Source: Edaphobacter dinghuensis
GTDB lineage: Bacteria > Acidobacteriota > Terriglobia > Terriglobales > Acidobacteriaceae
DNA length: 64,000 nucleotides
Assembly (NCBI RefSeq): GCF_014640335.1
Contig: NZ_BMGT01000003.1
Coordinates: 107,149-171,148, forward strand
Direction: 5' to 3'
In this document: positions 6,311 to 12,494 of the stretch, in pieces
Position numbering within the stretch: position 1 is the stretch's first letter
Layout of the letters: the number at the start of each line of letters is the position of its first letter
Notes under the pieces: generated by a model
The model's input: the letters and a program-made list of their open reading frames with translations, nothing else
Told to the model about the DNA's origin: nothing
Databases searched by the model: none
Program-made: the position numbers and the translations under genes

Positions 6311-6343
6311 TAGATGATGATTTTATTTTGAGGTAAGGCTTTG

Positions 6344-8494
6344 ATGCGCGTTCGCCGAGGGTTTGCCACGCTGCTTTGCGGGTTGGTGCTGGTATCGACA
6401 TCTGCGGCATGGGCAGCGCAGAAGCCAGCCGATCCGGTTGCAGTGACGTTGCGTGCGGCTGCGCTCGATCAGTATGTGGGGCTTTATCACGGCTCGGAAG
6501 AGCCGGATGCGGTGGATTCGGTGTATCGCGAGGGCGACAAGTTATATATCGAGAATGAGCGGAAGCCGCGGGCAGAGCTGCGTGCCGAGGGGGTGGACCG
6601 CTTTTTTGCGGTGGGGACTTTGCTGCACATGCAGTTTGTGCGCGATGCCGGGGGAAAGGTCACTGGCGTAACGATGATGTATGGCGCGAACGCTTCGTGG
6701 AGCCTGCAGCGCTCGAGCGACGTTGGAGTTCGGCTGAATCATGCGCTGGCTTATTCGCGCACGGTGGTGATGATGCCGATGCGCGATGGGGTGAAGCTTC
6801 ATGCGGTGATTCTGCGGCCGGTAGGGTCGGAGACGAGTGGGCCGCCGCTACCGTTTTTGATGGAGCGAACGCCTTACGGCACGGACGACAACAGTTCGGA
6901 CACTGTAAACAGCAGCAAGCCGGAGCTGGCGGCGAGCGGATATATCTTCGTGTACTGCGATATTCGCGGACGGTATGAGTCGGAGGGGCAGTTTGTGATG
7001 AATCGGCCTATCGTTGCGCACGGGACAAAGAACGATGTGGACGAGACGACGGATACGCGGGACACGATTGACTGGCTGTTGAAGAATGTTCCGAACAATA
7101 ATGGGCGCGTGGGTGTGATGGGCGTCTCGTATCCGGGGTTTCTGGCGATGATGGCGGGGATCGATGCGCATCCGGCGGTGAAGGCGATCTCGCCGCAGGC
7201 CCCGATGACGGACGTCTGGATGGGCGATGACTTCTTTCATAACGGAGCGTTTCGCGAGACCTATGGCTTCGACTATGTGCAGGAGTTGGAGAAGCAGAAG
7301 ACAGCCAAGACGGTCGAGAGCAAAGAGGACACCTACGATTTCTTTTTGAAGCATGTGAACTTTGCCGGGGCGGCAAAGGAAGCGCACATGAGCAAGCTGC
7401 CTACGGCAAAGGCGTTTTTGACGCAGCCTGCGTACACGAAGTTCTGGCGGGACATGGCGGTGCAGACGCATCTGACGAAGGTTGAGGTGCCTGCGCTGGA
7501 GGTTGGCGGCTGGTGGGACCAGGAAGATATGTGGGGGACGCAGGCGGAGTATGCGGCGTTGGAGCGGCATGATACGAAGCATGAGGTGTTTCTGGTGCTG
7601 GGGCCGTGGAACCATGGCGGGTGGGAGTGGACGACACGGCACCTGGGGGCGTTGGACTTTGGCGCGTCTACGGGAGATCAGTATCGCAAGACGGTGGAGG
7701 CTCCTTTCTTCGAGAAGTATTTGAAGGACAGGGGTGGCTTTGATTTGAAGGATACTGATAGTTTTCGGACGGGCGTGAACAAGTGGGAGCGCTATGATGT
7801 GTGGCCGCCGAAGGTTGGGTTCACGGCAGAGAAGCTTTATCTGACTGAGGGCGGTGGGCTCAGCTTTAGTGCGCCGGTAGATGGCGGGGTGGCGGCGAGT
7901 TATGTGTCCGATCCGGCGAACCCGATTCCTTACCGGCATCGGCCTATTCAGGCGACGTATGGAAATGGGTCGAAGTGGCGGACGTGGCTGGTGGAAGATC
8001 AGCGTTTTGTGAGCGGAAGGAAGGACCTGGCGAATTTTTCTACGCCGGTGCTTGATCACGATGTGACAGTTACGGGAGATGTGGCTGCGGATTTGTTTGC
8101 GGCTACGACAGGGAGTGATGCGGACTGGGTGGTGAAGCTGATCGATGTCTATCCTGACGATGCTGCGGGCGAGATGGCGGGTTATCAGTTGATGATTGCA
8201 GACGAGATCTTTCGCGGAAGATATGTCTCAAGCTTTGAGAAACCGCAGGCCTTGGTTCCGGGAAAGGTGACGGAGTTTAAATGGAGTCTGCATGGAGTGG
8301 ACCATACTTTTCTTAAGGGCCACAGGATCATGGTGGAGGTGCAGTCGAGCTGGTTTCCGCTATACGACCGCAATCCGCAGACATATGTGCCGAATATCAT
8401 GACCGCACCGAAGAAAGCTTACAAGGCTGAAACAGAGACGATTTATGGTTCGGAGAAGTATCCGTCGCATCTGGAGATTTCGGTGGCGCAGTAA
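6344..8494 (+). CDS. CocE/NonD-family serine hydrolase, secreted
   Basis: 716 residues with a signal peptide (MRVRRGFATLLCGLVLVSTSAAWA). A beta-rich N-terminal part (about 30-130) precedes the S15/CocE alpha/beta-hydrolase domain. That domain contains MPMRDGVKLHAVILRP, ERTPYG, YCDIRGRYESEG and the nucleophile elbow VGVMGVSYPGFL with Ser at about residue 261. The C-terminal jelly-roll typical of X-Pro dipeptidyl-peptidase, cocaine esterase and cephalosporin acylase follows (VTGDVAADLFAATTGSDADW, then HRIMVEVQSSWFPLYDRN). Substrates are amides or esters, not predictable here. ATG 6344, preceded by AGGTAAGG, is preferred over a TTG three bases earlier. Confidence 0.92.
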   Translation: MRVRRGFATLLCGLVLVSTSAAWAAQKPADPVAVTLRAAALDQYVGLYHGSEEPDAVDSVYREGDKLYIENERKPRAELRAEGVDRFFAVGTLLHMQFVRDAGGKVTGVTMMYGANASWSLQRSSDVGVRLNHALAYSRTVVMMPMRDGVKLHAVILRPVGSETSGPPLPFLMERTPYGTDDNSSDTVNSSKPELAASGYIFVYCDIRGRYESEGQFVMNRPIVAHGTKNDVDETTDTRDTIDWLLKNVPNNNGRVGVMGVSYPGFLAMMAGIDAHPAVKAISPQAPMTDVWMGDDFFHNGAFRETYGFDYVQELEKQKTAKTVESKEDTYDFFLKHVNFAGAAKEAHMSKLPTAKAFLTQPAYTKFWRDMAVQTHLTKVEVPALEVGGWWDQEDMWGTQAEYAALERHDTKHEVFLVLGPWNHGGWEWTTRHLGALDFGASTGDQYRKTVEAPFFEKYLKDRGGFDLKDTDSFRTGVNKWERYDVWPPKVGFTAEKLYLTEGGGLSFSAPVDGGVAASYVSDPANPIPYRHRPIQATYGNGSKWRTWLVEDQRFVSGRKDLANFSTPVLDHDVTVTGDVAADLFAATTGSDADWVVKLIDVYPDDAAGEMAGYQLMIADEIFRGRYVSSFEKPQALVPGKVTEFKWSLHGVDHTFLKGHRIMVEVQSSWFPLYDRNPQTYVPNIMTAPKKAYKAETETIYGSEKYPSHLEISVAQ

Positions 8495-8514: not shown

Positions 8515-9060
8515 ATGATTCGGACGATCAGCAGCCGGGAGGTCTATCGCAATCGCTGGACGCGGGTGCGTGAGGATGTGATCGAGCGGACGAATGGGCA
8601 GCGGGGTATCTACGGAGTGGTGGACAAAGATCCGGCTGCGATTATCATTCCGCTGGAGGTGACGGCGGAGGGAGAGTTTGTTTATCTAATCGAGCAGTTT
8701 CGTTATACGGTGGGTGCGCGGCATATCGAGTTTCCGCAGGGCGGCTGGGAGATGGCCGAGGTCGACGCGGAGGAGATGGCGCGGGGAGAGTTGCGCGAAG
8801 AGACTGGACTGACGGCGGCGAAGATGACTTATCTTGCTACGTTACAGATTGCGTATGGCGTGATGAATCAGCAGCAGCATGTGTTTCTGGCAGAGGGACT
8901 GGCGATGGGTGAGGCCGAGCCGGATGCGGAAGAGCATGATCTGGTGGTGCGTCGGGTGAGCGTGAGTGAGTTTGAGCAGATGCTGCTGGATGGGGTGATT
9001 GTCGACAACTGCTCGGTGGCGGCGTGGGGACTTTATAAAGTCTGGCGTGAGCGGCGATAG
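8515..9060 (+). CDS. NUDIX hydrolase (ADP-ribose pyrophosphatase-like)
   Basis: 181 residues. The NUDIX region PQGGWEMAEVDAEEMARGEL runs into REETGLTA and is preceded by YLIEQFRYTVGARHIEFPQG, as in ADP-ribose pyrophosphatase-type members. The box departs slightly from GX5EX7REUXEEXGU: a Gly occupies the place of the first Arg (GELREETGL). The catalytic EE pair is intact. A nucleoside diphosphate-X hydrolase is likely, with substrate open. It starts 20 bases after the hydrolase gene with a GGGGAGGGTGGC leader and may be co-transcribed. Confidence 0.88.
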   Translation: MIRTISSREVYRNRWTRVREDVIERTNGQRGIYGVVDKDPAAIIIPLEVTAEGEFVYLIEQFRYTVGARHIEFPQGGWEMAEVDAEEMARGELREETGLTAAKMTYLATLQIAYGVMNQQQHVFLAEGLAMGEAEPDAEEHDLVVRRVSVSEFEQMLLDGVIVDNCSVAAWGLYKVWRERR

Positions 9061-9102: not shown

Positions 9103-11304
9103 ATGATTTGCAAGCGGCTTCTCTTGTGTCTGGTTGTACTTCTCTTTTTTTCGAGTGCTGCGGTGGTTAAAGCTCAGACGACGGCTCCTGCCGAGGGCGT
9201 GCTGCAGCGATTGATGCCACAGCTTGCGCCGCAGTTCCAGTTGGCTCTGGTTCCACGAGCGGACCATAAAGACTACTTTCGCATTACAGGGACGACCGGC
9301 CATATACGGGTGGAGGCGGCTACGACGCCTACGTTGCTGTTCGGGGTGAACTGGTATCTGAAGTATGTGGCGCACCTTCAGATTTCGACCAATGGGTTTC
9401 AGCTTGGTCGGGCCGGGTTGAAGCTGCCTGCTGTCGCTGTGCCGATTGAACGACCTGCGCTTTATCCGTGGCGATATGCGCTGAACGAGAACGTCGATGG
9501 ATACTCTGCGCCTTATTGGAGCTTGAAGCGGTGGCAGCGCGAGATCGATATTCTGGCGATGAGCGGGACGAATGCAGTGTTGATCGAGCGCGGCACGGAC
9601 CTCGTGATGTATCAGACGTTTCGGGATGCGGGCTATTCGGATGAGGCGATTCGTCAGTGGATCACGCAGCCTGCACACCAGAACTGGCAGTTGATGGGGA
9701 ACATGTGCTGCTTTGATGAACCGATCTCGCTGGAGTTGCTGAAAAAGCGAGCGGAGTCGGCTAAGGAGCTGATCGCGAGCCTGCGGCGGCTGGGGATTAC
9801 ACCGGTGCTGCCGGGCTACTACGGAATCGTTCCCGCGGATTTTGCGTCGCTGAATCCGGGAGCGCATGTTGTGACGCAGGGCGACTGGAACGGATTTACT
9901 CGTCCGGGCTGGCTCGATCCGAGAGACCCGCACTTTGCGAAGCTGGCGGAGTCTTTCTATCGGCATCAGCGCGAACTTTATGGCGATACGACGATTTATG
10001 ACATGGAGGTATTTCAGGAGGGTGGGAGAGCCGGCGATGTTCCTGTGACCGAAGGCGCGAAGCGAGTGCAAGAGGCGTTAGAGCTGGCGCATCCGAATGC
10101 GCTGTGGCTGATGATGGCGTGGCAGAAGACGCCTTCGCCGGAGCTGATTGCCGGTGTGGATGTGAAGCATGTGCTGGTCGCCGATATCGAGCAGGGTCGC
10201 ATTCCGCGAGACAATCGCGATGCTCAGTTTGGCGGTGCTTCGTGGTTGTATGGCGGATTGTGGGAGTTTGGCGGCCGCACGACGCTGGGTGCTCCGCTGT
10301 ATGACTATGCGGTGCGATTTCCGCTGATGGCGAAGCGTCCGGGTAGTCACATTGCGGGGACGGCGTTGTTTACCGAGGGGCTGGATACGAACCCGTATGC
10401 GTTCGATCTTTATACGGAGATGGCCTGGCATGATGAGCCGGTGGATCTTGCAGTGTGGACAGATGATTATGCTGAGCGCCGTTATGGCAGTAAGGATGCA
10501 CATGCGCAGAGGGCCTGGCAGATATTGCTGAAGACGGCGTATGGCTATCGTGCAGATGGCAACAGGCAGCATGGCGAACGCGATGCTTCGCAGGACTCGT
10601 TGTTCAATGCGCAGCCTTCGTTGACGACGAAGCGGGCGTCATCGCCGGGGCCGGACGTGCTGCGCTATGAGGCTGCCGATCTGCAACCGGCGCTTACAGA
10701 GTTGCTTGAGGTCGCGCCTGCGCTGCGGTCGAGTGAGACGTATCGATATGACCTTGTAGATGTTGCGCGGCAGGTAATGGCGAATGAGGGCAGGAGGTTG
10801 CTGCCGCAGATCAAGGCTGCCTATGACTCGAAGGACAACGCGGCATTTGCTCAGCTTACCGCTGAGTGGCTTCACGACATGAGGTTGCAGGACGATCTGC
10901 TGCGGACGAATGGCGATTTTCTGCTGGGGCGGTGGCTCTCGTATCTTTCGCCATGGACTACGTCTCCGGCGGAGATGGAGAGGCTGAACTACGATGCCCG
11001 GTCGATCCTGACGACGTGGGGAAATCGCAGTGCAAGTGAGGCTGGACATCTGCATGAATATGGCAATAAGGACTGGGCCGGGTTGACGAGCGATTACTAT
11101 ATGCCGCGGTGGAAGTTATACTTCGACTCGCTGACGAAGTCGCTTGCGACGGGAGAGCCAGCGGCGCCGATTGACTGGTATGCCTTTGGCGACCGATGGA
11201 ATCATAGCCGCACGCACTATACTGCTACATCGGAAGGCGATAGCTATGCTGCAGCGCTGGAGATTGCGCGACAGCTTCATCTGGCGCCAGGAGAATCGAA
11301 ATGA
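9103..11304 (+). CDS. Alpha-N-acetylglucosaminidase, GH89 (NAGLU family)
   Basis: 733 residues with a signal peptide (CKRLLLCLVVLLFFSSAAVVKA). The layout is that of NAGLU: an alpha/beta N-terminal domain (GVNWYLKYVAHLQ), the TIM-barrel catalytic domain starting near PWRYALNENVDGYSAPYWSL, and a helical C-terminal domain. Glu residues in IYDMEVFQEGG and in LFTEGLDTNP align by context with the acid/base and nucleophile regions of human NAGLU; NMCCFDEP and WLYGGLWEFGG are also family stretches. The enzyme removes terminal alpha-linked GlcNAc from glycans such as heparan or heparin-type chains or mucin. It overlaps the next gene by four bases. Confidence 0.93.
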   Translation: MICKRLLLCLVVLLFFSSAAVVKAQTTAPAEGVLQRLMPQLAPQFQLALVPRADHKDYFRITGTTGHIRVEAATTPTLLFGVNWYLKYVAHLQISTNGFQLGRAGLKLPAVAVPIERPALYPWRYALNENVDGYSAPYWSLKRWQREIDILAMSGTNAVLIERGTDLVMYQTFRDAGYSDEAIRQWITQPAHQNWQLMGNMCCFDEPISLELLKKRAESAKELIASLRRLGITPVLPGYYGIVPADFASLNPGAHVVTQGDWNGFTRPGWLDPRDPHFAKLAESFYRHQRELYGDTTIYDMEVFQEGGRAGDVPVTEGAKRVQEALELAHPNALWLMMAWQKTPSPELIAGVDVKHVLVADIEQGRIPRDNRDAQFGGASWLYGGLWEFGGRTTLGAPLYDYAVRFPLMAKRPGSHIAGTALFTEGLDTNPYAFDLYTEMAWHDEPVDLAVWTDDYAERRYGSKDAHAQRAWQILLKTAYGYRADGNRQHGERDASQDSLFNAQPSLTTKRASSPGPDVLRYEAADLQPALTELLEVAPALRSSETYRYDLVDVARQVMANEGRRLLPQIKAAYDSKDNAAFAQLTAEWLHDMRLQDDLLRTNGDFLLGRWLSYLSPWTTSPAEMERLNYDARSILTTWGNRSASEAGHLHEYGNKDWAGLTSDYYMPRWKLYFDSLTKSLATGEPAAPIDWYAFGDRWNHSRTHYTATSEGDSYAAALEIARQLHLAPGESK

Positions 11305-12494
11305 CGAGTGAGACGAAGACTGCACTGGTTGGTAGCGAAGAGGTGACAACGACGCGTATAAAGCCGGGACGATTGATGTCGATCGACCTGCTGCGCGGGC
11401 TGACCATCGGGTTCATGATTCTGGTGAACAACAATGGAAGCCGTGCGGCCTATGCAGAGCTACAGCACTCTGCCTGGAACGGATTTACGGCCACCGACCT
11501 GGTGTTTCCTACTTTTCTATTTTTGGTTGGCGTCTCGACTGTTTTCTCGACTGCCTCGCGACTGGCGCGGGGAGACAGCAAGCAATCGCTGTTTCTGCAT
11601 ACGCTGCGGCGTGCGGTGATCCTGTTTCTGCTGGGGCTGCTGGTCAATAGCTTTCCGCACTTCCACTGGGTCACGCTGCGGTTCTATGGCGTGCTGCCGC
11701 GAATTGCGATCTGCTACTTCGTTGTGGCCACGCTCTATCTAATCAATCCGAAGTGGAAGAACAAGCTGGTGCTTGCGATTGCGCTGTTGATCGGCTACTG
11801 GGCGCTGATGCGGTTCGTCCCGGTGCCAGGCTATGGGACTCCTGGGCGCGATGTTCCTTTGCTTGATCCTGACCGCAACATTGTGGCATGGCTGGACCGG
11901 CATATCTTTGCGGCTTCGCACCTTTATGAGCGGACGCGTGATCCTGAAGGGTTGTTGAGCACGTTGCCCGCGCTGGCGACGACGTTGATCGGATTGCTTA
12001 CAGGGATGTGGCTGCGGACGCAGCGGGCGTTGGCGGAGAAGGTGCGCGGAATTGCCATTGCGGGTGCGAGCTGCGTGGTGCTGGGATGGCTGTGGAACTT
12101 CTCTTTCCCCATCAACAAAAAGCTGTGGACGAGCTCATTCGTGTTGTTCGCTGTAGGGTGGAGCTTGTTGTTACTGGCGCTCTCGATCTGGATGTTCGAT
12201 GGAGAGGCAGAAGGAAAGACGAAGGCGGTGAAGCGGTCTCGGTGGTTTACTCCGCTGCTTGTCTTCGGCACAAATGCAATTACAGCGTATGTATTCTCAG
12301 AGCTGCTGGCGGGTGGTATTGGGAGCATTCATGTGCGGCCTGGGTTGAACCTTCAGCACTGGCTAGCCAATGGAATTTTGAGTGCGGTGCCTGATCCGGC
12401 GTTTGCTTCGCTGCTTTATTCGCTTGGCTTCGTTCTCGTCTGCTGGCTGCCTACCTATTGGCTGTTCCGGCGAAAAATATTTATCAAGATCTGA
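11301..12494 (+). CDS. HGSNAT-like membrane acyltransferase (DUF5009/COG4299)
   Basis: 397 residues with about ten hydrophobic segments. The N-terminal signature SIDLLRGLTIGFMILVNN, then HSAWNGFTATDLVFPTFLFL, is that of the heparan-alpha-glucosaminide N-acetyltransferase family. The His of HSAWNG is the likely acetyl-accepting residue. Human HGSNAT acetylates terminal glucosamine across the lysosomal membrane so that NAGLU can cut it. Bacterial members have uncertain substrates. The start ATG overlaps the TGA of the GH89 gene (ATGA), implying coupled translation and a shared task: acetylating terminal glucosamine before cleavage is the simplest model. Confidence 0.88.
   Translation: MTSETKTALVGSEEVTTTRIKPGRLMSIDLLRGLTIGFMILVNNNGSRAAYAELQHSAWNGFTATDLVFPTFLFLVGVSTVFSTASRLARGDSKQSLFLHTLRRAVILFLLGLLVNSFPHFHWVTLRFYGVLPRIAICYFVVATLYLINPKWKNKLVLAIALLIGYWALMRFVPVPGYGTPGRDVPLLDPDRNIVAWLDRHIFAASHLYERTRDPEGLLSTLPALATTLIGLLTGMWLRTQRALAEKVRGIAIAGASCVVLGWLWNFSFPINKKLWTSSFVLFAVGWSLLLLALSIWMFDGEAEGKTKAVKRSRWFTPLLVFGTNAITAYVFSELLAGGIGSIHVRPGLNLQHWLANGILSAVPDPAFASLLYSLGFVLVCWLPTYWLFRRKIFIKI

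Follow-up and report, generated by a model that had tools for sequence, protein, structure and literature searches.

Heparan sulfate degradation in the human lysosome includes a step served by two proteins: HGSNAT, which carries acetyl groups from cytosolic acetyl-CoA across the membrane to terminal glucosamine (GlcN), and NAGLU, of glycoside hydrolase (GH) family 89, which then removes the alpha-linked N-acetylglucosamine (GlcNAc). Failure of HGSNAT underlies Sanfilippo syndrome type C, and failure of NAGLU type B. Here we analyse a 64,000-nucleotide stretch of Edaphobacter dinghuensis (contig NZ_BMGT01000003.1, positions 107,149 to 171,148; the whole stretch is hereafter the window), in which members of the same two families are encoded by overlapping genes. 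We propose, with a probability of roughly 0.55, that the pair is a conserved two-step exo-glycan unit, in which transmembrane N-acetylation of terminal alpha-glucosamine would be followed, as in the lysosome, by release of that residue as GlcNAc by GH89.

The enzymology of each half is already known, and the idea of a bacterial glucosamine acetyltransferase is itself published: in five bacteria, NagX mutants have altered fitness on glucosamine, from which acetylation of periplasmic glucosamine with cytosolic acetyl-CoA was proposed in 2022 (PMC9007349), and an NCBIfam model bears the name. The initial annotation called bacterial HGSNAT relatives poorly understood; they do have a proposed function. 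NagX proteins (of the SO_3504 / Shewana3_3111 type) share with the window's protein the HGSNAT_cat family, size, proposed chemistry and links to nag genes, but they are tied to chitin or glucosamine use and are proposed to act on free glucosamine, whereas the partner of the window's protein is GH89. The DUF5009 / COG4299 proteins of Bacteroidota belong to a homologous fold family; a 2025 study placed them alongside HGSNAT, none of them having a function confirmed by experiment (PMC12423673). In Bacteroides thetaiotaomicron, the GH89 protein BT0438 and the DUF5009 protein BT0446 are encoded a few genes apart, and both shifted the same way in a single iron experiment (PMC10434189). Another bacterial GH89 from that species, Bt3590, acts on heparosan oligosaccharides, from which it removes alpha1-4 GlcNAc (PMC8225759); unlike for the window's enzyme, no acetyltransferase partner is mentioned in the paper's main text. 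We found no paper describing GH89-HGSNAT/NagX coupling in bacteria, a weak negative given that subscription journals and preprints were mostly outside coverage.

The overlapping genes and their principal features are as follows.

9103–11304, + strand: GH89 alpha-N-acetylglucosaminidase (NAGLU family), 733 aa, exported by a predicted signal peptide; Pfam domains NAGLU_N, NAGLU and NAGLU_C
9103–9174, + strand: Sec-type signal peptide of GH89, about 24 aa, likely cleaved after VKA (translation read by eye)
10018–10020, + strand: codon of E306, predicted acid/base Glu of GH89 (alignment with E483 of Clostridium perfringens GH89)
10375–10377, + strand: codon of E425, predicted nucleophile Glu of GH89 (alignment with E601 of the same enzyme)
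11289–11293, + strand: AGGAG, Shine-Dalgarno-like, within the 3' end of the GH89 gene (sequence)
11301–11304, + strand: ATGA overlap of the GH89 stop (TGA, 11302–11304) and the HGSNAT-like start (ATG at 11301)
11301–12494, + strand: predicted HGSNAT/NagX-like transmembrane acetyltransferase, 397 aa (PF07786, human HGSNAT match, predicted fold)
11466–11468, + strand: codon of H56 of the HGSNAT-like protein, aligned with catalytic His269 of human HGSNAT (sequence alignment)

The upstream protein belongs to GH89 by its domains and by both catalytic glutamates, with enzyme activity predicted on that basis. All three NAGLU domains exceed their Pfam cut-offs (E 1e-92, 1e-73 and 3e-17), and alignments with GH89 structures in the PDB, the human enzyme included, span most of its length at E-values down to 1e-104. 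Its N-terminus, MICKRLLLCLVVLLFFSSAAVVKA-Q, reads by eye as a Sec-type signal peptide. E306 and E425 align with positions 483 and 601 of C. perfringens GH89 (PDB 2vc9; numbering by hand count, as chain index plus 25), which we take to be the published acid/base and nucleophile, respectively; neither varies among 11 divergent GH89 proteins. The secreted GH89 with both catalytic Glu regions described in the initial annotation is therefore borne out.

For the downstream protein, likewise first described as a multi-pass member of the HGSNAT family, the assignment holds on three counts. It scores 42.2 bits against PF07786 (HGSNAT_cat; cut-off 22), and matches the human HGSNAT sequence at E=1e-23. 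An AlphaFold model, built from the window's protein together with 14 homologues (predicted local distance difference test score, pLDDT, 82; predicted template modelling score, pTM, 0.85), returns human HGSNAT chains as its top 15 structure matches (E 7e-15 to 2e-12, TM-scores of about 0.72–0.77); the next match to the predicted model is GWT1, an acyltransferase with the same fold, and transporters appear only at insignificant E-values. Residues R24, D29, R32, N43, H56, D66, R104, R127, D214 and E216 correspond to human R239, D244, R247, N258, H269, D279, R317, R344, D469 and E471, respectively, which line the acetyl-CoA site and lumenal mouth and include the catalytic His269 (human roles from PMC11357348). 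The equivalent of H56 is kept in 56/56 homologues compared, and human K491 is unconserved, being Met in the window's protein. The protein is thus predicted to combine the HGSNAT transmembrane fold with the catalytic His and acetyl-CoA pocket residues, and acetyltransferase activity is predicted likewise. Taking both enzymes together, the likeness to the human couple extends to the catalytic His, N258, R344 and E471 of HGSNAT and to the GH89 catalytic Glu pair; unlike human HGSNAT, the bacterial protein is without the human-type lumenal domain and first transmembrane helix, and the bacterial genes, unlike the human ones, form one overlapping unit, with the periplasm as the proposed site of action and with gene contexts that do not indicate heparan.

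The reported ATGA overlap was confirmed, and AGGAG lies 8–12 bases ahead of the HGSNAT-like start, an arrangement that may couple translation of the two genes. Candidate HGSNAT starts with an identical -4 gap occur at loci L051, L057, L058, L114, L172–L175 and L178, alphaproteobacterial loci among these.

Adjacency of the two genes recurs within the same genome, within the family and well beyond it; the initial annotation had proposed this check, and would have taken a lack of recurrence outside close relatives as refutation. E. dinghuensis carries two GH89 and three HGSNAT_cat genes, and the second GH89 is also followed by an HGSNAT gene of its own; the two GH89 proteins are only 26% identical and the two paired HGSNAT proteins 51% identical, and the second GH89 starts with a twin-Arg motif, by eye, rather than a Sec-type signal. 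GH89 matches were found in 26/396 genomes of the phylum. In the window's family, an HGSNAT gene is directly adjacent on the same strand in 21 of the 26 GH89 loci examined, where about 0.04 adjacent pairs would be expected by chance from some three HGSNAT_cat genes per genome (a hand estimate, with relatives not independent). One locus, L049, has reversed gene order, and combines a window-type GH89 with an HGSNAT from the group that accompanies the other GH89 lineage, which looks like an independent assembly of the pair.

In a cross-phylum sample of 80 GH89 loci (one genome per species; several loci incomplete), direct coupling was found in 14, from Mucilaginibacter, Siphonobacter, a Chitinophagaceae metagenome-assembled genome and Opitutaceae, and at a few further loci an HGSNAT relative lies no more than about 3 kb from GH89. 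DUF5009-like proteins are the partners of GH89 in these four groups; unlike the window's protein, they form a separate clade with Glu or Asp for the acetyl-CoA-binding Asn. The window's gene itself matches HGSNAT_cat and not DUF5009, a name under which the initial annotation proposed to search; a DUF5009-like branch supplies the partner in Bacteroidota and Verrucomicrobiota. In one Mucilaginibacter (L131:7902-10123), a frameshift or a sequencing error divides the GH89 gene that immediately precedes the HGSNAT partner into two frames. Among alphaproteobacterial plasmid records with GH89 (Asticcacaulis, Novosphingobium and Sphingomonas), the HGSNAT gene adjoins in 9/9. The pair therefore recurs in at least four bacterial phyla: the window's own, Bacteroidota, Verrucomicrobiota and, through Alphaproteobacteria, a fourth; we rejected the view that it is local to one genus. 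A tree of the partners comprises an acidobacterial set, the DUF5009-like clade of Bacteroidota and Verrucomicrobiota, and an alphaproteobacterial clade lying among GH89-near Bacteroidota HGSNATs, such that GH89 partners fall in at least three separated clades of the HGSNAT family, and the GH89 tree (FastTree only) holds at least nine changes of paired state on supported branches. The recurrent pair is probably a working team.

The plasmid-borne GH89 proteins closest to the window's, at 40–45% identity, come from Streptomyces, Embleya and haloarchaeal Haladaptatus records. No HGSNAT match was found in the plasmid records with GH89 from these genera (H27–H33), which suggests horizontal transfer of GH89 alone. 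A GH89 search of viral contigs gave no match.

In the mechanism that we favour, the transmembrane protein would draw acetyl groups from cytosolic acetyl-CoA and N-acetylate the terminal alpha-linked glucosamine of a periplasmic oligosaccharide; the exported GH89 would release the acetylated residue as GlcNAc, which would then be taken up, phosphorylated and deacetylated by a transporter, a NagK-like kinase and NagA. As GH89 yields GlcNAc and not GlcN, we infer that a coupled acetylase most simply acts before GH89, on bound terminal glucosamine. Amino-sugar acetylation by the membrane protein, glycosidically bound GlcN as its acceptor and the order of steps would all follow from this reasoning, and acetylation of terminal glucosamine before cutting, as originally suggested, is consistent with the sequence evidence. 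The fitness data published for NagX also speak for acetylation of glucosamine in the periplasm (PMC9007349). The proposed downstream route agrees with genes for GlcNAc catabolism that lie next to the pair or at other sites in the genome. In Novosphingobium (L174), the pair stands beside a fused phosphotransferase-system EIIA-HPr-EI protein, a NagA-type amidohydrolase and a SIS-domain protein, and on another contig of the E. dinghuensis genome NagA and a BadF-family kinase lie near each other, with GH20 and a sodium-symporter-like gene, both by sequence resemblance, in the same region.

Several observations weigh against this mechanism. The window's protein seems to have Ser333 where human HGSNAT has the lumenal H586 (placed by eye, beyond the aligned part), and the acetyl-CoA-binding Asn is replaced in the DUF5009-like GH89 partners, as above. 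Five of the 26 family GH89 loci, and most of the 80-locus sample, are without an adjacent HGSNAT gene, and HGSNAT relatives are often multicopy, with up to 11 matches per genome among 32 genomes counted; neither protein therefore needs the other, and the HGSNAT family as a whole must be broader than its partnership with GH89. Finally, the NagX proteins with experimental support act on free glucosamine, and not on a bound residue (PMC9007349).

This last point leads to the main rival, in which the membrane protein, as a NagX, would have free periplasmic glucosamine as its acceptor, and is co-transcribed with GH89 only as both feed the GlcNAc pathway. We regard this as possible, though on balance unlikely. 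The published proposal rests on fitness data with free glucosamine (PMC9007349), nag-type genes adjoin the pair in Novosphingobium, and the window's protein matches the NCBIfam model NagX_SO_3504 (NF046061); the score of 207.7 bits is, however, far under this equivalog model's cut-off of 480. Moreover, the recurrent partner, GH89, makes no free glucosamine, and among about 11 clear HGSNAT genes away from GH89 in the same family, whose neighbours were scanned, only one is beside GH20, the remainder being flanked by unrelated or Pfam-less genes.

A second alternative, that the membrane protein acylates some other acceptor, such as another amino sugar, and that its partnership with GH89 reflects a glycan containing both residues, appears improbable. 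The TmAT superfamily does modify many acceptors (PMC12423673), paralogues are numerous, and the DUF5009-like partners are without the conserved Asn, but adjacency that is specific to an alpha-N-acetylglucosaminidase, and that recurs in at least three HGSNAT-family clades, favours a reaction which creates the GH89 substrate. Least probable of all is that the protein is a sugar transporter importing GH89-released GlcNAc: a distant homologue, TfMurT, has been named a putative N-acetylmuramate transporter (cited in PMC9007349), and an exo-glycosidase with a neighbouring transporter is a common arrangement, but the predicted fold matches two acyltransferases ahead of any transporter, the protein retains its catalytic His and the residues of the acetyl-CoA pocket, and the symporter-like gene near the genome's NagA-like gene (by sequence resemblance only) is another transporter candidate.

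With acetylation of bound glucosamine before GH89 cleavage as the preferred reading, the gene contexts bear on the likely substrate. In Asticcacaulis (L173 and L175), a BadF-family kinase comes next after the pair, and beyond it GalA beta-galactosidase, GH43, arabinofuranosidase and fucosidase genes, with GH95 in the vicinity and GH115 in one of the two loci. A tryptophan-halogenase-family gene separates GH95 from a TonB receptor in the same clusters (L173:6114-7613; L175:6051-7556). In Sphingomonas, GalA, GH115 and a fucosidase come after the pair. Upstream of most Mucilaginibacter pairs lie SusCD (assigned from cluster membership, as are all SusC/D calls here) and GH28; the L078 cluster runs SusCD-GH89-GH35-HGSNAT-GH92, and L080 (7968-15974) encodes a single 2668-residue protein with GH89, GH35 and GH92 domains. 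L109:8013-16103 encodes a similarly long GH89-containing protein, the two measuring about 2670–2700 aa.

The substrates that these contexts together suggest are complex glycans of plants or fungi. The neighbour scans, two of which covered the 25 commonest families only, named no heparin lyase next to the pair. The E. dinghuensis genome encodes a single Hepar_II_III_C protein and several proteins of the GH88 family, all of them outside the pair's operon. Heparan sulfate, the obvious candidate substrate, finds no support in the neighbourhoods observed and is likely not the target; of the human parallel first drawn for this locus, the two-step logic stands, and the contexts point to other glycans. 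In plants, the head group of glycosylinositol phosphorylceramide (GIPC) sphingolipids carries GlcN or GlcNAc in alpha linkage to an inositol-bound glucuronic acid. These head groups have been described as a hexuronic acid plus a hexose bearing a hydroxyl, amine or N-acetyl group, decorated with galactose, arabinose, mannose or fucose (PMC8158104); this composition fits the gene contexts, and GIPC as the substrate is our guess. More broadly, and with considerable doubt, a widespread bacterial HGSNAT-NAGLU couple might open glycans with unacetylated alpha-glucosamine, including GIPC head groups and glycosylphosphatidylinositol-type glycans, having been assembled repeatedly with different acetyltransferase subfamilies, while surrounding exo-enzymes remove the outer galactose, arabinose, mannose and fucose.

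If the proposed mechanism is true, the lysosomal logic lost in Sanfilippo types B and C would exist as a portable two-gene bacterial unit, so that HGSNAT-NAGLU coupling could be modelled in a single operon, free of the human lumenal domain. It would also give a testable role to some members of the large HGSNAT/DUF5009 family, most of whose bacterial proteins are unassigned, and predict that carriers consume glycans with unacetylated alpha-glucosamine, a class for which we found no described bacterial pathway.

Two further genes lie directly upstream of the pair.

6341–8494, + strand: CocE/NonD-type S15 hydrolase, 20 bp upstream of the NUDIX gene (profile matches; neighbour comparison)
8515–9060, + strand: NUDIX hydrolase, 42 bp upstream of GH89, possibly co-transcribed with it (Pfam; neighbour comparison)

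We rejected both as members of a conserved unit, as L058, the nearest relative, is the only other locus where they accompany the pair. Shortly before the window begins, at G000:C3:105209-106279, a GH88-family protein is encoded some 10 kb ahead of the pair, outside its operon.

HGSNAT genes away from GH89 have neighbours of their own. The third HGSNAT gene of E. dinghuensis (L006:8054-14401) lies beside genes for a 519-aa secreted-looking Pfam-less protein and a TonB-type receptor-like protein. At two further loci, similar-looking Pfam-less proteins of about 810 aa (L194:5864-8284 and L195:1278-3713) adjoin unpaired HGSNAT genes and are possibly another HGSNAT partner; on its other side, each has a gene of receptor size, about 1200 aa.

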